The position numbers and the translations under genes were made by a program. The notes under the pieces were generated by a model that was given only the letters and a program-made list of their open reading frames with translations, did no database searches and had not been told where the DNA came from. From Pantoea sp. alder81 (GTDB lineage: Bacteria; Pseudomonadota; Gammaproteobacteria; Enterobacterales; Enterobacteriaceae), in NCBI RefSeq assembly GCF_020179835.1, contig NZ_JAIUDA010000004.1:248001-312000 (forward strand): DNA of 64,000 bases, read 5' to 3'. Below are positions 1,204-43,565 of this stretch, in pieces. The first letter of the stretch is position 1. Each line of letters opens with the position of its first letter.

Positions 1204-2600
1204 GCCGCCTGCATCGCGATCACGCGATCTGTCCCCTTCTCCAGCAGTTCGCGATCGTGGCTCACCAGCAGTACGCCGCACTGCTGGTGACGCGCCATCT
1301 GCGTTATCAGCTGCAGGGTTTGCTGCTGTACCAGCGGATCGAGTCGCGATGTTGGCTCATCGGCGAACAGGAAAACCGGTTCAAGCAGCATGACGCGTAA
1401 CAGAGAAAAGCGCTGTAACTCGCCGCCCGAGAGGGAATCCGGGCAGCGCGTAAGTAATGAAGGATCTAACGCCAATTGCTCCATTAGCGTGTCGCGTTTA
1501 GACCGTTCAATGCGATGACGGCGCAGCACATCCTCCAGGCTTTGTGACAGCGTGCGCATAGGGGGAAACAACGCCGAGGGATCCTGATAGATCTTCTGAT
1601 ACTTCAGCGCGCTCGCCGCAACATGACGTGTGATACTGCCCTGTTGTGGCGCGAGTAATCCCAGTAATACGTCGCCAAAACTGCTTTTCCCACTGCCGCT
1701 GGCGCCATGTAAACCGACAATTTCACCAGCATGCAGGGTGAAGTTTTCTGGCACGCCCAACGTATTTCCACCGCGCTGCAGTTTTATTCCCTGCGCGCTC
1801 ACCACCGGTTTGCTACGGATCACCGTGCTTTGCCGTTGCGGCCAGGCAACGGGGTCGGCGGCCAGCAACTCGCGGGTATAGCTCTGCTGCGGGGTGTGTA
1901 ACACCTGCTGCGCTGTACCTTGCTCGATCACTTTGCCTTTGTGCATGACGATAACGTCGCCGCCTAACTGACGCGCCAGCGCGATATCGTGCGTGATGGT
2001 CAACAGCGTTCCGCCTTCAGCCACTTCACGACGCAGCAATGCAGAAACGTCATCGCGTCGGGACACATCCAACCCCTTGGTCGGTTCGTCTGCTATCAGG
2101 ATCTCCGCACCACCCGAGCGCGCCGCTGCAAATGCCGCGCGCTGGGCCATGCCACCGGACAGTTGCCACGGGAATTTCTGTGCCGCAACCTGTAATCCCA
2201 GCTGTGCGAGGTCATCCTGCGAAGCCGCAACGCTTCGCGGCGCGGAATGCCCTCGAATATAGCGATAGCCTTCCTCAACCTGCTGCTGAATCGCCATGGT
2301 GGGATCCAGCGCCAACCAGGGTTCTTGTGGCAGCGAGGCCATAGTCCTTCCCCACAAGCTACGTATCGCATCACGATCCTGCGGTAACTGATAGCGTTGA
2401 CCGTTGATGATCAAGGTTCCGCTGGCCTGTAATGTCTCCGGCAAAATTCCCATTACCGCCTGCGCCAACAGGCTTTTTCCTGAGCCGGTTTCACCTAATA
2501 AGGTGAGCGGCTGGCCAGGTTGCAAGTGAAAATCGACCGGTTCCACCAGCGTGGCATCTGCTGTTGATACCGTTAGGCCAATGGCCTGTAATCCCTTCAT
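1200..2600 (-). CDS. Fused double ATP-binding subunit of a Nik/Opp-type ABC importer
   Basis: 466-residue protein carrying two complete ABC ATPase domains, like a NikD-NikE or DppD-DppF fusion. Domain 1 has Walker A GETGSGKS (about 36-43), signature LSGGMAQR and Walker B ILIADEPTKGLD. Domain 2 has Walker A GASGSGKS, signature LSGGELQR and Walker B VFLFADEPTSRLD. It would power the two permeases encoded immediately upstream. The frame is open to 2843, but that extension lies inside the permease gene; the ATG at 2600 overlaps the permease stop by 4 bases, a translational coupling. The substrate is not determinable from this subunit; the operator of the operon suggests metal or metallophore uptake. 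Confidence 0.85.
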   Translation of the reverse strand: MKGLQAIGLTVSTADATLVEPVDFHLQPGQPLTLLGETGSGKSLLAQAVMGILPETLQASGTLIINGQRYQLPQDRDAIRSLWGRTMASLPQEPWLALDPTMAIQQQVEEGYRYIRGHSAPRSVAASQDDLAQLGLQVAAQKFPWQLSGGMAQRAAFAAARSGGAEILIADEPTKGLDVSRRDDVSALLRREVAEGGTLLTITHDIALARQLGGDVIVMHKGKVIEQGTAQQVLHTPQQSYTRELLAADPVAWPQRQSTVIRSKPVVSAQGIKLQRGGNTLGVPENFTLHAGEIVGLHGASGSGKSSFGDVLLGLLAPQQGSITRHVAASALKYQKIYQDPSALFPPMRTLSQSLEDVLRRHRIERSKRDTLMEQLALDPSLLTRCPDSLSGGELQRFSLLRVMLLEPVFLFADEPTSRLDPLVQQQTLQLITQMARHQQCGVLLVSHDRELLEKGTDRVIAMQAA

Positions 2601-3379
2601 GCACGCTCCTTTTTCATCATCAGGTTGAGGCTTATCAGCAATAAAAACAGCGCGGCAACGGGCTGCAACAGTAACCAGGGGGCTTCCCAGGCAAAGGGCA
2701 GCAGTTCCGTCATCATCAAACCCAGTTCCGGCGTCGGTGGTCGGACACCCACGCTGATAAAGCCCAGTGCCGATACGGCCATGATGGCACTGCTGAACGA
2801 GAACAGCGCAACTGTGAGCAGTACCGGTGCGAGTGCCGGCCACAGGTGGCGACGAAAACGGTAAAGCGCGTTAAAACCCAGCAGTTTTGAAGCCTGCATG
2901 CCTGGTGAATGCACAATCGGAAGTAAGGTGGCGCGCGTTACGCGGAAGAATTCCACCCACAGTACCAACGAGATCCCCAGCCACAGCATCTGCGGCGAAT
3001 CAGGGGCAATCGCCGCCAGTAACAGCACCAGCAGCAAGCCGGGTAGCGCGAGATACATATCACTCAGCATACTGATTAAGCGGTCCAGCACACCGCCATA
3101 AAGCGCACTGAACGCGCCAGCCAGCACACCGACCAGCATCGCACTGATCACGCACAGTGCAGCCAGACCCAGTGACAGGCGCAGCGCCGCACTCAGGCGC
3201 GGCAGCATGTCACGCCCCAGGTGATCAAAACCTAACAGATTGGCCTGGCTGGGCGGCTGCAACATGTTGAGTAGCTCTTGTTGCAGGGGATCGCCATGAT
3301 GAAACAGAGGCAGTAAAAAGGCGTAGCTCAGTAGCAGAGCCAGCAGCAGTAAACCGGCATGACGTGAAGTCAATTTCAT
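2597..3379 (-). CDS. ABC importer permease, DppC/NikC type
   Basis: 260-residue inner-membrane permease of the BPD_transp_1 family, with about five to six hydrophobic segments starting at LLLLALLLSYAFLLPL. The cytoplasmic coupling loop is recognisable from EFFRVTRATLLPIVHSPGMQ followed by ALGFISVGVRPPTPELG, the classic C-type permease ending. It pairs with the B-type permease encoded upstream; the genes overlap by 4 bases at 3376-3379. It works with the fused ATPase and the binding protein at 4311-5837. At 260 residues it is slightly shorter than many DppC proteins, with a short N-terminal tail. Confidence 0.85.
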   Translation of the reverse strand: MKLTSRHAGLLLLALLLSYAFLLPLFHHGDPLQQELLNMLQPPSQANLLGFDHLGRDMLPRLSAALRLSLGLAALCVISAMLVGVLAGAFSALYGGVLDRLISMLSDMYLALPGLLLVLLLAAIAPDSPQMLWLGISLVLWVEFFRVTRATLLPIVHSPGMQASKLLGFNALYRFRRHLWPALAPVLLTVALFSFSSAIMAVSALGFISVGVRPPTPELGLMMTELLPFAWEAPWLLLQPVAALFLLLISLNLMMKKERA

Positions 3380-4311
3380 GGACGCGTCCCTCGCGGATCA
3401 AGCAGATGGCAACCCGCATCCACCAGCATGTTAAGCAGTACAAACAGCAGGCCGAGCGTCATGGCACTGGCCTGTATCACCGGCACATCGCGGGCGAAGA
3501 TGGCGTGAACCAGTGCATGACCGATGCCTGGCCAGGCAAACAATGTCTCTACCACTACCACGCCTTCCACCAGCCAGACAAACTGCATACCGAACCAGGT
3601 GAGTACCGGTGTTCCCAGATTGCGTAAACCGTGACGTTGCAACAAGGTGGCGGGCGCCAGACCTTTTTGCGCCCCCCAATGGTAATAGCCTGCATTCACC
3701 ACCTGCCGGGTGGCTTCGCGCACCACGCGCACGCCCACCGCGCTCAGGGACAAGGCCAGCGTCATCGCCGGTAACAGGAAATGGCGCAGCTCACCGTGTC
3801 CCGCAGTCGGCAGCCAGTCGAGTTGCAGCGCGAACAACACGATCAGCAGCATACCCAGTGCAAAATGCGGCACAGACTTAAGCATCGACGTCAGCCAAAA
3901 CAACAGCCGATCCAATTTGCCATTGGCGTGGCAACCGGCCCAGATACCCAGTGGCAGCGTGATAACCAGCGTCAACAGCAATGAAACGCTTGCTAATGCC
4001 AGCGTCTGGCTCAGTTGCCATCGCAGTTCGTCCATCACCGGTTCGCCGGAGACCAGCGAACGGCCAAAGTTGAATTGCAGCAGATCGAACAGCCAGTGCA
4101 GTAAGGCGCTGCCTTGATCGGTTGCACCGTTTAACTCCTGCTGCACGCGCGCGACAGCATCCGCATCAACCCGATCATAGCCGTAGCGACCACTGGCAAT
4201 ACGCCACGCCATATCGCCCGGCAGTGACCGGACCAGAAACCAGGTGAGTAAACCCACCGAGAGCACGACAAAAAACGCCTGCATTAGACGCCAGCTTAGT
4301 TGTCTGATCAT
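3376..4311 (-). CDS. ABC importer permease, DppB/NikB type
   Basis: 311-residue inner-membrane permease. The N-terminus (RQLSWRLMQAFFVVLSVGLLTWFLVRSLPGD) is the standard B-type first transmembrane segment followed by the LPGD periplasmic motif. Coupling-loop and C-terminal membrane segments follow (VREATRQVVNAGYYHWG, then FVWLVEGVVVVETLFAWPG). Two starts are possible: an ATG at 4323 and the ATG at 4311. I choose 4311 because GGAG sits at 4320-4317 with good spacing and the ATG overlaps the TGA stop of the binding-protein gene by one base, the usual coupled arrangement. Confidence 0.85.
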   Translation of the reverse strand: MIRQLSWRLMQAFFVVLSVGLLTWFLVRSLPGDMAWRIASGRYGYDRVDADAVARVQQELNGATDQGSALLHWLFDLLQFNFGRSLVSGEPVMDELRWQLSQTLALASVSLLLTLVITLPLGIWAGCHANGKLDRLLFWLTSMLKSVPHFALGMLLIVLFALQLDWLPTAGHGELRHFLLPAMTLALSLSAVGVRVVREATRQVVNAGYYHWGAQKGLAPATLLQRHGLRNLGTPVLTWFGMQFVWLVEGVVVVETLFAWPGIGHALVHAIFARDVPVIQASAMTLGLLFVLLNMLVDAGCHLLDPRGTRP

Positions 4312-5837
4312 CACGGCTCCCATCGCAGCTGGCGCAGGCCGAAGTGACGTTCAAACGGATCGAGCGCGACGTTTTTCAGTTGGCTGTTGATCGCTGCCGA
4401 TTGTTGATACCAGGCGATTGGAATCACCGGCAGATCCTGTTGCAGCGCCGAAGTGATCAACGTTCGAGCCTGGGCACGCGCGGAGGCATCGGTGGATTGC
4501 GTCAGGGTATGCAGTGCGCCACTGAATCCCGCCGGATGCCAGTTCATCGCTCCCCAATCGCCGCCTTTCTCGGCGTAATCCTGCAGCAAGGTGCCGGTTG
4601 GATCGGGCGTTAGTGCAAAGTTGCGTGAGAACAGCGCCAGTTGTAATTTCCCGCTGTGATGCTGGGCAGGAATTTCGCTGGCATTGGTTGAGTTGATTTT
4701 CACTTCTATACCAACTTTGCGCAGCTGCTGCTGAATAACCATCGCCATCAACGGCAGTTCAGGGCGATCCGGGAATGTCAGCAGCGTCAGGCTAAATCGC
4801 TGACCGTTGCGTGTCAGCACGCCGTCTGATCCTGATTGCCAGCCGGCTTTTTGCAACAGAGTGATAGCCTCATCGGGCTGATAGGCCAGTGGTTGCAGTG
4901 CCGCGTTGTGCCACTCACCCATGTTCGGCGGGAACAACTGACTGGCAGCACCCGGATAGCGCAACACCGCCATCGCCAACGCGTTGCGATCGATCGCCAT
5001 GCTGATCGCTTCGCGCATCGGTTGTTCGGCTAACAGCGGATCGCCCAGATTGAGCTTCAACATCAGCGTGCGCGGCACAGAAATGGCGGGAAGCTGCAGC
5101 GCAGGCTTACGTGCCAGACGCTGACGGCTGGCTGCATCAAGATTGAACACATAATCCTCATCACCGCTTTCTGCCAGTAGCGCGCGGGTTTCTGCCCGGC
5201 CGGAGGAGAGATAGCTGGCTGTGGCGATATGCGGTTTTTCACCCCAGTACGCTTCAAAACGTTTTACTGCTAACGACTGCGGCGGCTGAAAGGCGGTCAG
5301 CATGAAGGGACCACTGCCGATGATGCGCGTAATGTTGCCCTGTGCATCCCAGCTGGATAGCGCCAGTATTTGTGAGCGGCTTTCAGCCAGGACGGAAAGC
5401 AGTGGTGTGAAAGGCTCGCGCAGTGTGATGGTCACCACCTGCCCTTCCCCGCTGATCTCAGTGATGGGTGTTTTATCCAGTAATCCCGCTTTGTTCCGCG
5501 CAGTGTTGAGTGATTTCACTACCACTGACGCATCCAATGGCGAGCCATCATGAAAGCGCACGTTATCGCGCAGTTGTAATTGCCAGCGCAAACCGTCTTC
5601 CGAGACCTGCCAACTCTTCGCCAAAGCCGGGATCGGTTCACCGCGTTCGTTCACTTCCACCAGCGTTTCCACCACATCCATGCGCAGAAGGATGTCACCG
5701 GAAAGCGCCGGATCGGCACCTTTAATTTCAAACGGAGCGGCAATGCGCACCGTGTTTTCCTGATGCTGCGCCGCGAAAGAGGCGCACGAAGCCAGGCCGA
5801 GCGCCGTGGCGATCAGCAATTTTTTCATTGATTTCAT
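4311..5837 (-). CDS. Substrate-binding protein of a Nik/Opp-type ABC importer
   Basis: 508-residue solute-binding protein of the SBP_bac_5 (peptide/nickel/opine) family. It has a basic N-terminus and a hydrophobic signal region; the LASC at about residue 15-18 could be a lipobox, or cleavage could occur after SFA, giving a soluble periplasmic protein. The mature part begins with RIAAPFEIKGADPALSGDILLRMDVVETL and contains LRDNVRFHDGSPLDASVVVKSLN, the family signature. First gene of a four-gene operon with two permeases and a fused ATPase. Its promoter carries a Zur-like operator about 46 bases upstream, so the ligand may be a zinc or nickel complex, possibly a metallophore, rather than a peptide. 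The ligand is inference. Confidence 0.85.
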   Translation of the reverse strand: MKSMKKLLIATALGLASCASFAAQHQENTVRIAAPFEIKGADPALSGDILLRMDVVETLVEVNERGEPIPALAKSWQVSEDGLRWQLQLRDNVRFHDGSPLDASVVVKSLNTARNKAGLLDKTPITEISGEGQVVTITLREPFTPLLSVLAESRSQILALSSWDAQGNITRIIGSGPFMLTAFQPPQSLAVKRFEAYWGEKPHIATASYLSSGRAETRALLAESGDEDYVFNLDAASRQRLARKPALQLPAISVPRTLMLKLNLGDPLLAEQPMREAISMAIDRNALAMAVLRYPGAASQLFPPNMGEWHNAALQPLAYQPDEAITLLQKAGWQSGSDGVLTRNGQRFSLTLLTFPDRPELPLMAMVIQQQLRKVGIEVKINSTNASEIPAQHHSGKLQLALFSRNFALTPDPTGTLLQDYAEKGGDWGAMNWHPAGFSGALHTLTQSTDASARAQARTLITSALQQDLPVIPIAWYQQSAAINSQLKNVALDPFERHFGLRQLRWEP

Positions 5838-5880
5838 TATGGTTTCCGAAAAATACCGCTACAAAAATCCCAGAGAAATT

Positions 5881-5897
5881 ACGTTATAACATAACAA
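5881..5897 (-). promoter_or_regulatory. Zur-like operator upstream of the Nik/Opp-type importer
   Basis: Read on the minus strand, the site is TTGTTATGTTATAAC followed by gTAA. It matches the left two thirds of the perfect palindrome at 40153-40178 exactly and departs at one position in the right half. GTTATAACATAAC fits the published Zur core used in proteobacteria. It lies 44-60 bases upstream of the binding-protein start, where bound Zur would block RNA polymerase. Confidence 0.6.
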
Positions 5898-40152: not shown

Positions 40153-40178
40153 ATTTGTTATGTTATAACATAACAAAT
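40153..40178. promoter_or_regulatory. Perfect 26-bp Zur-type palindrome upstream of the COG0523 gene
   Basis: Every base from 40153 to 40178 pairs with its mirror; the core is GTTATGTTATAACATAAC. It fits Zur operators described for proteobacteria, and COG0523 genes are classic Zur targets. It ends 57 bases before the chosen start codon. Confidence 0.78.
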
Positions 40179-40235: not shown

Positions 40236-41447
40236 ATGTCATCATTATCCCCGAATTTTAAAAAGTTGCCGGTTACTGTTCTCTCCGGTTTTCTCGGTGC
40301 AGGCAAAACCACGCTGCTTAACCACATTCTCAATAATCGCGAAGGTCGCCGCGTGGCGGTGATCGTCAACGATATGTCGGAAGTGAATATCGATGCCGCC
40401 CTGGTGCGTGAGGGCGGAGCGGAGCTGTCGCGCACCGATGAGAAACTGGTGGAGATGAGCAACGGCTGCATCTGCTGCACGCTGCGTGAAGATCTGCTGT
40501 TAGAAGTGGATCGCCTCGCAAAAGATGGCCGTTTCGATAATCTAGTGATCGAATCCACCGGTATTTCCGAGCCGCTTCCGGTGGCGGAAACCTTTACCTT
40601 TGCCGATGAAGACGGTCAGAGCCTGTCGGAAGTCGCTGCTCTTGACACCATGGTCACGGTCGTGGACGGCTTTAATTTCCTGCGCGATTACGAATCCAAC
40701 GAAAGCATCAAATCCCGCGGTGAATCGCTGGGTGAAGAAGATGAACGCACGGTGGTGGATCTGCTGGTGGATCAGATTGAATTCTGCGACGTGCTGATTC
40801 TGAACAAAACTGATCTTATTGATGAAGCGGAAAAAGCCCGTTTGTTGGCAATCCTTTACTCGCTGAATCCGCGCGCACGCATTGTCACTTCCGAATTTGG
40901 CAAAGTGCCGTTGGATCAGGTGTTAAACACCGGCTTATTTGATTTCGAAGCGGCCTCACAAGCACCGGGCTGGCTGCAAGAACTGCGCGGTTCACATACG
41001 CCAGAAACCGAAGAGTACGGCATTCGCAACTTCGTGTTTCGCGCGCGTCGTCCCTTCCATCCCACCCGCTTCGCCAGCGTGATCGAAGGTGATCTCAAAG
41101 GTGTGGTGCGGTCTAAAGGTTTCTTCTGGCTCGCCAGCCGCCCGCGCTATGCCGGTTCATGGTCACAGGCCGGCGGCGTGACGCGTCAGGGCCTGGCAGG
41201 CATGTGGTGGGCAAGCGCGCCAAAAGAGCGCTGGCCGGAAGACCCTGAGACGCTGGAATACATCATGCAGAACTGGGTTGAAGGCACCGGCGATGCGCGG
41301 CAGGAAATCGTGTTTATTGGTATTGAGATGGATGAAGCCCTTCTGCGCAGTCAGCTGGAAAATGCGCTGCTGACTGATGAAGAGATGGCGCAGGGGCCTG
41401 AAAACTGGGCCGAATATCCGGACCCGTTTGAACCCTGGTTTCACTAA
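40236..41447 (+). CDS. COG0523 (CobW/ZigA/YciC-like) metal-chaperone GTPase
   Basis: 403-residue G3E-family GTPase. Walker A is [12 protein letters not shown] (about 18-29), the metal site CxCC is in [14 protein letters not shown] (Cys 78, 80, 81), and Walker B/switch residues are in [14 protein letters not shown]. The base-recognition motif is [10 protein letters not shown], and the CobW C-terminal domain runs from about 285 ([32 protein letters not shown]). Such proteins are induced on zinc starvation and insert metal into client enzymes. The open frame extends up through the operator to 40155, but ATG 40236 has AAGGAG at the right distance. Confidence 0.9.
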
Positions 41448-41493
41448 TGACAGGCTATAAATCTTTCTGTGCGTTGATGGATAAAGATTAAAA

Positions 41494-41563
41494 CCGGGCA
41501 CACAGGTAACACTTTTAACCCGGCACACAGGTAACACCTTAGACCGGCCACACAGGTAACAGT
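41494..41563 (+). repeat. Three 25-bp-spaced copies of CACACAGGTAACA
   Basis: Copies of CACACAGGTAACA at 41499, 41524 and 41549, each preceded by a CCGG-containing segment, spaced exactly 25 bases. They lie between the two COG0523 genes. The unit looks like the end sequence of a transposable element repeated in tandem, but no transposase is present. Confidence 0.8.
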
Positions 41564-41653: not shown

Positions 41654-42844
41654 ATGCAAAAAATCCCCCTCACCATTCTCAACGGTTTTCTCGGTGCAGG
41701 AAAAACGACGCTATTAAAAAGCCTGCTGATTCAGGCTCATAAACAGCAACTTGCAGTCTGCGTCATCGTCAATGATATGAGCGAACTGGACGTCGATGGC
41801 GTGCTGATTGCCAACACTGAAATCGTCAACACCAGTAAACACAATTTCATCACGCTCTCGGCCGACAGTATCAGCAGCCGAAGCGGCATTGAAAAACTCA
41901 ATGCCTCGCTGGCGTCGATGCTCAATGCGCATCGTCCGGACCTGATCCTGCTGGAAACCTCTGGCAGCAGCCATCCGTTGCCGCTGGTGCGCTATTTCCG
42001 CGACCATGCCGAGGTGCAACTCAACGGATTCTTATCATTGGTCGACAGCGTGATGCTAAACGACGATTACCAGCAGGGCGAGGCGCTGATTCCTCGTTTG
42101 CAAGCCAATCTGACTCGTCACGAACGGCGCATCGAGAATCTGCTGGCAGAGCAAATCATGTTTTGCAGCCATCTGCTGCTCACCAAAAATGATCGGTTGC
42201 CGTCTTCCAACATTACCCGCATTGCCCAGGCCATTCATCCGCTCAATCCCTATGTGGCAGTGATGGCGGTATCACGGGGAAACCTGCTGCTGAGCGAACT
42301 CATGGCGATGCCGTCCTACGATTTCGGACGGGTCGCGCAGTTAATTGAAGAATTAGCGGATGAGGTGGATGTCATTGATCCCGGCGCGTGGCAAATGACT
42401 TCCGAAGTGATTCACGACGATCGTCCATTCCATCCGCAGCGATTGTGGGATACCTGCCATCACTTTATGGGCGCGGGCATCTATCGCAGTAAGGGCTTTT
42501 TCTGGCTGCCGACGCGAGATGACCTGGCACTGTTGTGGAATCAGGCCACTGGCAGTATCAGTCTGGAATTTATCAGTTACTGGAAAGCGGGAATTCTGAA
42601 TCATCGTGATAGTCCGCTAACGGCAGAGGAGCGCGCGGCGGTCGAACTGGCAGTGGCAAAAATGCCGGGGCGATTTGGCGATCGACGCTGCAGTTTAACG
42701 GTGATTGGTGAGCCGGATGACGTGAAAAGCTTCAGCGCCGCCCTGAAACGCTGCTTTCTCAATGAAGAGGAGATTGCATGGTGGCAAAGCGGCGGTGAAT
42801 TTGCCGATCCCTGGCCGCAGCGAGTCGCGCGTGTATCGGCCTGA
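41654..42844 (+). CDS. Second COG0523 GTPase-like protein, CxCC motif missing
   Basis: 396-residue paralogue of the preceding protein. Walker [14 protein letters not shown] (about 11-23) and [15 protein letters not shown] are conserved, as is the C-terminal [39 protein letters not shown]. Where the first protein has NGCICCTL, this one reads ITLSADSISSRS, so the metal-binding CxCC is absent. The guanine-specificity motif NKTD is changed to TKND. It may regulate or partner the canonical copy, or have a different cargo. ATG 41654 has AAGAGG upstream. No Zur box of its own is seen; it could be read through from the upstream gene across 206 bases. Confidence 0.85.
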   Translation: MQKIPLTILNGFLGAGKTTLLKSLLIQAHKQQLAVCVIVNDMSELDVDGVLIANTEIVNTSKHNFITLSADSISSRSGIEKLNASLASMLNAHRPDLILLETSGSSHPLPLVRYFRDHAEVQLNGFLSLVDSVMLNDDYQQGEALIPRLQANLTRHERRIENLLAEQIMFCSHLLLTKNDRLPSSNITRIAQAIHPLNPYVAVMAVSRGNLLLSELMAMPSYDFGRVAQLIEELADEVDVIDPGAWQMTSEVIHDDRPFHPQRLWDTCHHFMGAGIYRSKGFFWLPTRDDLALLWNQATGSISLEFISYWKAGILNHRDSPLTAEERAAVELAVAKMPGRFGDRRCSLTVIGEPDDVKSFSAALKRCFLNEEEIAWWQSGGEFADPWPQRVARVSA

Positions 42845-42845
42845 A

Positions 42846-43073
42846 TTAACCGGCTAGCGCGCGCATTTGCGTACAGAACGGACACTGGCAGCCGGATACG
42901 GGCTTTAACAACGCCGCATGCACTTCTGCCGTCGCCAGAGGCTGCGTCAAATCGACGTTGGCCACTGCGGTATCCGGCTTTTGCGCCAGTTTTAACATAT
43001 CAATCTTTGCCTGAAAGGCACCTGCTTTTGCCGATGCTATGGCGATAAGCAACAGAGGAACAGTGGTCTTCAT
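42846..43073 (-). CDS. Small exported protein with CQCPFC motif
   Basis: 75-residue protein of unknown function. The N-terminus (KTTVPLLLIAIASAKAGA) looks like a cleavable signal peptide. The mature part of about 55 residues is plain until the C-terminal VSGCQCPFCTQMRALAG, with three cysteines in a CxCxxC pattern suited to metal or disulfide chemistry. The gene is divergent from the dksA-like gene and shares its 72-base intergenic region and Zur-like box, so it is probably zinc-repressed. A periplasmic zinc-handling or thiol role is inference. Its end lies one base from the convergent second COG0523 gene. Confidence 0.6.
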   Translation of the reverse strand: MKTTVPLLLIAIASAKAGAFQAKIDMLKLAQKPDTAVANVDLTQPLATAEVHAALLKPVSGCQCPFCTQMRALAG

Positions 43074-43097
43074 CGCAGCAACCTCAATGAATGATTT

Positions 43098-43120
43098 GAA
43101 ATGTGACGATATAACATTAA
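43098..43120. promoter_or_regulatory. Zur-like box between the small Cys protein and the dksA-like gene
   Basis: GAAATGTGACGATATAACATT matches the gammaproteobacterial Zur consensus (GAAATGTTATA-N-TATAACATTTC) at about 17 of 22 defined positions, with an intact right half TATAACATT. It lies about 25 bases from both divergent start codons. Confidence 0.6.
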
Positions 43121-43145
43121 CACAGGGCTGTTAAGGAATTTCAAC

Positions 43146-43565
43146 ATGAACAAACCCACAGCAGCGGAGCAGCAAAACCTCCTGAGTATGCCGCCCGACG
43201 CGTATATGAATGCTCACCAAAGTGATTTCTTTTTGCGCTTATTACGTTTTGAGCGTCAGGAATTACTTGACCACATCGACTATCTAAAAACACAACTGCA
43301 GCGCAATGAACAGCAAGGAGATGAGGCCGACAAGGCGCTACGTGAGGAAGAGCTGCGTCTGTTGTTTCGGCAGATTGATCGTGAAAGCCGCCTGATACCC
43401 AAAATCGCAGCGGCGATGCAGCGTATCCATCAGGGTGAATACGGCTTCTGTCGGGAGACGGGCGATCCGATTGGCCTGGCGCGTTTGTTATTACGCCCAA
43501 CAGCGGAACTCTCAATTGATGCGAAGATTAAACAGGAGCGGGTTGAAGCGCAGTACCGCAAATAA
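43146..43565 (+). CDS. dksA2: DksA-like RNA polymerase regulator without zinc ligands (DksA2 type)
   Basis: 139-residue DksA/TraR family protein. It has the long coiled coil with the acidic tip DEADKA (D59, D62, A64), matching the DxxDxA needed for action in the polymerase secondary channel. The C-terminal globular domain keeps the fold (GEYGFCRETGDPIGLARLLLRPTAELSID) but of four zinc cysteines only the first remains: Cys102, Thr105, Ser123, Ala126. Zinc-independent DksA2 proteins replace DksA during zinc starvation and are Zur-regulated, which fits the upstream box. It should modulate rRNA and amino-acid promoters with ppGpp. Confidence 0.85.
   Translation: MNKPTAAEQQNLLSMPPDAYMNAHQSDFFLRLLRFERQELLDHIDYLKTQLQRNEQQGDEADKALREEELRLLFRQIDRESRLIPKIAAAMQRIHQGEYGFCRETGDPIGLARLLLRPTAELSIDAKIKQERVEAQYRK

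Follow-up and report, generated by a model that had tools for sequence, protein, structure and literature searches.

ZinT of E. coli and Salmonella is a Zur-regulated periplasmic zinc protein that is auxiliary to ZnuABC. The targets of E. coli Zur that are named in a review (PMC6103462) are znuABC, zinT, rpmE2, rpmJ2 and pliG, the last of which also appears as a known Zur target in PMC4219657. Furthermore, AztD is described in PMC6689063 as a periplasmic zinc metallochaperone that hands zinc to AztC, PA4063 of Pseudomonas aeruginosa figures in PMC8561739 as an exported, periplasmic zinc-starvation protein, and Haas et al. (2009; PMC2770081) deal with Zur-linked COG0523, DksA2, HemB and HisI genes.

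Here, we analyze a stretch of 64,000 nucleotides from Pantoea sp. alder81 (contig NZ_JAIUDA010000004.1), referred to as a whole as the window, in which a small gene stands between dksA2 and two COG0523 genes. It is our view, taken with moderate confidence, that this gene is repressed by Zur and that its product is a metal-binding peptide, exported through Sec, that serves in zinc starvation. The features on which the discussion turns are the following.

40156..40175, strand not assigned: Zur box 5' of zigA, with 0 mismatches to the published motif
40236..41447, plus strand: zigA, ZigA-type COG0523 zinc metallochaperone with CxCC (NF038288, 697.9 bits, cut-off 600)
41654..42844, plus strand: cobW2, second COG0523 GTPase, tail-to-tail with the small gene (NF038288, 209.9 bits, below the cut-off of 600)
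42846..43073, minus strand: small protein of 75 aa, predicted to be exported (ORF and translation, Ka/Ks, family scans)
43102..43121, strand not assigned: shared Zur box, 18/20 against the published E. coli motif, kept in Pantoea and L082
43106..43134, minus strand: sigma-70-like promoter of the small gene, TTAACA-17-TATCGT (consensus match only)
43146..43565, plus strand: dksA2, DksA-family protein with a single Cys (PF21157, PF01258, TIGR02420 at 117.3 bits, cut-off 115.5)

Results

The small gene and its surroundings in the window

The initial annotation described a 75-residue protein with a signal peptide and one cysteine cluster, and the reading frame bears this out. Judging by pattern only, the N-terminus consists of Lys-2, a hydrophobic stretch and A-x-A, with predicted cleavage at A19|F20, and the only cluster, C62-x-C64-x2-C67, lies in the C-terminal part (GCQCPFC at 61-67). 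Ka/Ks values are low, 0.04-0.13 in six Pantoea-type comparisons, and stay under 1 in each of the 24 pairs, out of 25 tried, for which they could be computed (range 0.02-0.41).

The COG0523 pair with which the small gene was said to complete a zinc-starvation locus consists of zigA, preceded by its perfect Zur box, and cobW2. The latter lacks the metal-binding CxCC, as do its four close homologues in the loci L064, L070, L082 and L083, each of which adjoins a copy of the small gene and dksA2. Between zigA and cobW2, at 41491-41561, there is a 25-bp tandem repeat (2.8 copies) whose unit contains CACACAGGTAACA, a 13-mer with no exact copy elsewhere in the source genome. On the other side of the small gene, the product of dksA2 retains one cysteine, three of the four zinc-finger cysteines having presumably been replaced, judged against E. 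coli DksA; this agrees with the earlier proposal of a Zur-box promoter common to the small gene and a DksA without zinc-finger cysteines. Far from this locus, a near-perfect Zur box (window positions 5877-5896, 1 mismatch) lies 40 bp 5' of an ABC importer that looks by eye to be of the oligopeptide/nickel type, with a binding protein (4311-5837), permeases (3376-4323 and 2597-3379) and a fused ATPase (1200-2843); possibly, it imports metallophores or peptides under Zur regulation.

The small gene and dksA2 are divergent, and the 72 bases between them (43074-43145) hold, as had been noted, one Zur-like site, which lies at 43102-43121 and has two mismatches to the E. coli motif TRWNAYRWTATAWYRTNWCA quoted in PMC6103462. 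In an alignment of seven promoters, namely those of the window, five named close relatives and L082, the longest unchanged run outside genes, ATGTTATATC, falls inside this site. The sigma-70-like promoter overlaps the box, one such promoter being found in the region against 0.4 expected. At up to two mismatches, the motif is non-specific genome-wide (18+18 strand matches against 5+12 for the reversed control), and the two mismatches of the window site to the shorter core GTTATnnnATAAC are by themselves not significant (21 matches in the window, 15.6 expected). For this reason, the case for a Zur site in the window rests on its conservation and on the homologues. Elsewhere in the source genome, with gene names given by eye from translations, the motif is found with 2 mismatches in the znuA/znuC gap, with 1 mismatch at a second zinc-type ABC importer and with 0 mismatches at a pair of the L31/L36 type with a Cys-free L31.

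Extent of the family

A profile of 23 members detects the family at 46 places in 45 of 392 Enterobacteriaceae genomes, representing 26 of 154 genera; four other genomes of the window's genus among the 392 are without the small gene. With the window protein as sole query, matches are obtained in 20 of 295 Enterobacteriaceae genomes and in seven named contigs, four of them Pantoea and three labelled Enterobacter, Erwinia and Pseudomonas (proteins 97-99% identical). At the level of the order, the profile matches 5 of 394 genomes, all of the same family, and at the level of the class 2 of 274, namely the genome of the window itself and a match with two in-frame TGA codons that we take as chance; in other words, nothing credible is found beyond the family rank in these 394 and 274 genomes. 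The totals of 45 given below refer to the loci outside the window, with neighboring reading frames taken from a mechanical caller, and they all include L102-L104, the last three by score (E 4e-5 to 8e-5), which are without GCxCxxC and could be either false hits or copies in decay.

The small protein had been called undescribed, and indeed no Pfam, NCBIfam, PHROG or PDB model covers the family, searches of these collections giving no credible match; nor did a literature search of open-licence full texts find the small gene described or its expression reported. Weak or scattered matches were set aside, namely TRIM32 (E 0.31), CsgA (3 of 23 members, best E 0.0005), one PHROG (1 of 23, E 0.002) and DUF7833 (1 of 23, E 0.004). 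Metallothionein family models do not match the members, which hold 3-5 Cys, signal peptide included, and the AztD model NF038015 matches none of the 23. AlphaFold2 models built on two shallow alignments have mean pLDDT values of 52.9 and 48.9, too poor for judging the fold.

Cysteines and export signal

The motif GCxCxxC is present in 42 of the 45 loci, and its four-cysteine form, C-x6/7-GC-x-C-x2-C, in 37. In alignments of 23 and 20 rows, which exclude L102-L104 and some rows of which begin one to three codons early (L006 in the former, L082 and L088 in the latter), the three Cys and the Gly of GCxCxxC and the Arg that follows are invariant. In the Pantoea clade and in L082 the first Cys is absent, and two residues before its place there is a His that is conserved; His52 of the window protein is kept throughout its clade. 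As far as one can judge from sequence, this has the look of a swapped metal ligand, and would suit a metal ligand better than a disulfide.

The family also follows, by pattern only, the rules of Sec export (a Lys at the N-terminus, a hydrophobic core and small residues at both -3 and -1). In particular, A|F stands at the predicted cleavage site in 45/45 loci, the residue at -3 being A in 37 loci, C in 7 and V in one. The Cys at -3 (SCLA|F) is seen in L091-L097 and in the phage copies described below. None of the 45 loci tested fits the canonical lipobox.

Zur boxes across the family

Within 150 bp upstream of the small gene, a GTTATnnnATAAC core with at most one mismatch occurs in 30 of the 45 loci and is perfect in 18, while among 9000 shuffled controls none is perfect and 0.8% come within one mismatch. 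A core of this kind also precedes 19 of the 324 other reading frames of 150 aa or more in these loci, several of the 19 being zinc-type genes themselves. Counted by genus, a Zur box is present in 17 of 25. The core was taken from a consensus after some of the sites had been seen, and the published motif therefore serves as an independent check: it gives 32 of 45 loci a score of 17-20 out of 20, and in 31 of these 32 the score is equaled by at most 5 of 100 shuffles (by 13 in L096). On these comparisons, the Zur association of the family is well supported, and we infer that Zur actually controls the small gene.

Fifteen loci have no near core, among them L102-L104. Three of the fifteen, all from one genus, have the small gene downstream of a PPC-domain gene, which we take to be PliG-like, in an operon with a perfect core before the PPC-domain gene; these are also three of the 8 four-Cys loci, out of 37, that are without a near core. 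The four loci of genus g72 keep GCxCxxC and have neither a Zur box nor the fourth Cys, and yet Ka/Ks is low (0.10 and 0.02 in two pairs). Box and motif tend to go together, the box being found in 16 of 20 genera with the four-Cys motif versus 1 of 5 without it (Fisher p 0.023). Of the suggestion that homologues always adjoin Zur targets, the part concerning a Zur box stands as a recurrent feature, joined in some lineages by other zinc-starvation genes, whereas dksA2 as a constant neighbor has to be rejected, as only 4 of 45 loci (L064, L070, L082 and L083) have it within 5 kb.

Neighbors and plasmid copies

A zinc-type neighbor (dksA2, COG0523, AztD, AztC- or ZniA-like, HemB or HisI) is present within 5 kb in 13 of the 45 loci, a count in which L067 and its relative L072 enter through an AztD match below cut-off, L084 through HemB alone, and L079 and L081 through a binding protein that could be of the manganese type. 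Genus g98 has four loci, in each of which the small gene is divergent from a Peripla_BP_2/FecCD importer, with at least two perfect cores between them. In L064 and L070, a fusion protein with AMP-binding and chorismate-binding parts (scanned in L064) is encoded upstream of dksA2 with a Zur-like core one mismatch off, possibly pointing to zinc-regulated metallophore synthesis near the small gene.

On the Klebsiella plasmid pBio30, the small gene, annotated as a hypothetical protein, lies between an oxidoreductase gene and annotated aztDCBA genes; hemB and a gene for a dihydroorotase are close by, and the small gene is preceded by a perfect core. A four-Cys member matches 73 of 72,556 plasmid records, 66 of which are from Klebsiella. 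The copy on another Klebsiella plasmid, pINF237_01-VP, has no Zur box; about 700 bp before it (L130:3835-4287) there is an annotated transcriptional repressor that is Fur/Zur-like by eye.

Phage copies

In phage 21 and its relatives, the small gene lies between cos or terminase genes and TonB-domain and bor genes, the TonB C-terminal-domain gene of phage 21 being at L126:764-1090. Such matches come from 7 of 50,697 records, three of which were inspected, and from 36 loci of IMG/VR, 34 of them of phage-21 type. What is more, of 5426 complete E. coli genomes, 1213 match a 600-base phage segment that includes the small gene, and 1212 of them do so over at least 80% of the segment's length. In none of five phage-type records inspected is the small reading frame annotated. 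A DNA search of E. coli with the gene of genus g98 gives no match, the phage copy having emerged from the protein search only. Beyond what had been noted at the one locus, the family is found widely, mostly with a fourth Cys, and is carried on plasmids and phages.

The phage copies have no Zur box upstream. Instead, the sequence variants printed show a Fur-like match of 14-15 out of 19, counted against a Fur consensus. When the phage-21 region is shuffled with only its base composition kept, 2 of 3000 shuffles reach 15. In the more distant viral loci L168 and L169, neither a Zur nor a Fur site is clear. By their sequences, the phage copies look controlled by Fur and not by Zur, and zinc is therefore perhaps not the sole trigger.

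Discussion

Sequence comparison establishes the family itself, its conservation, its association with Zur boxes and the pattern of its export signal. The family, which enteric-group bacteria appear to turn on once zinc is exhausted, probably handles metal beyond the inner membrane. In the mechanism that we propose for the window, Zur bound at 43102-43121 would repress the small gene together with dksA2 as long as zinc is present, and both would be made as zinc falls. The preprotein would be exported and cut before Phe-20, leaving approximately 56 residues, and its C-terminal site (Cys4 in most relatives, His and three Cys in Pantoea) would be a periplasmic binding site for Zn2+ or a similar soft metal. 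The mature peptide would then buffer the metal or pass it to a zinc-binding protein such as ZnuA, ZniA or AztC, this hand-over being a guess. We infer the metal binding from the invariant cysteines, the His swap and the company of zinc-starvation genes (AztD, AztC, HemB, HisI, COG0523 and dksA2), which favor this reading. Against it count the four-Cys loci without a near core, the g72 loci with their low Ka/Ks but no box, the phage copies with a Fur-like site and the four genomes of the window's genus that lack the small gene; in addition, the cysteines of an exported protein may be oxidized.

Could the cysteines instead serve a redox function? CPFC is a redox-type motif, as found in glutaredoxins, and one can imagine an exported thiol/disulfide factor whose CxC/CPFC cycling guards or repairs envelope proteins with empty zinc sites during zinc starvation. 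Such a role would be in line with a protein that looks exported and with four Cys that can form two disulfides. However, no thioredoxin-fold or glutaredoxin family model matches the family, the Pro of CPFC is found in only 27 of the 42 GCxCxxC loci (the rest having A, G or S), and the clade of the window has three Cys and the conserved His. We consider this explanation unlikely. A second alternative, which we rate as quite improbable, is a peptide directed at the envelope, acting on an uptake receptor or the TonB system either by gating or as a shield against phages or bacteriocins that use receptors induced by metal starvation. The setting of the phage copies near cos, with bor and a TonB-domain gene beside them and a Fur-like site, speaks for it, as do the TonB-receptor genes near the small gene in L083 and L096; but receptors were recognized in these two loci only, among the part of the neighbors that was scanned, and the residues conserved in the family are of metal-ligand types. 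Finally, that the box serves dksA2 alone, with the small reading frame an unregulated or non-functional neighbor, would account for a single shared box whose core score alone is not significant, but is very improbable given the low Ka/Ks of the small gene, the Zur boxes upstream of homologues away from dksA2, and the case of P. dispersa, where the box is kept at a locus with the small gene and zigA and no dksA2 or cobW2 is found in the 5 kb flanks of the small gene.

Returning to a Zur-repressed exported metallopeptide, one may take a further, tentative step, which we regard as possible but doubtful. Namely, this unnamed family could be a mobile metal-starvation module that is run by Zur in zinc islands of chromosomes and plasmids, and of which phage-21-type phages of E. 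coli carry a Fur-rewired lysogenic-conversion copy. If this were true, a prophage would be giving its host a metal-starvation envelope function in approximately one fifth of the complete E. coli genomes searched. More generally, the zinc-starvation factors would gain a new class in a small, exported Cys peptide that many genera keep under Zur boxes, and the copies in phage-21-type prophages and Klebsiella plasmids point to a mobile role in metal limitation.

How does such a peptide compare with the known systems? With ZinT it would share Zur control and a periplasmic location, while differing in its size of approximately 56 residues and its Cys-based site; what is more, the ZinT family model is absent from its Pfam and NCBIfam matches. 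PA4063 has a ferredoxin-like fold and His-rich loops, and the search of PDB sequences found no relation between it and the small protein. The phage copies lie in the same right-end region as bor and thus resemble the lysogenic-conversion genes of the Bor/Iss type in lambdoid phages, although the small protein is by pattern not a lipoprotein: the phage subgroup does have a Cys at -3, but no lipobox is seen in the 45 loci tested. The main text of Haas et al. (2009; PMC2770081) does not contain "periplasmic" or "signal peptide" even once; the neighbor genes reported there are of the same kinds as those found here and have the same regulator. Finally, AztD shares loci with the small-protein family in several genera, but it is large (421 aa in L086) and of a different sequence, the small gene being an extra gene beside aztD.
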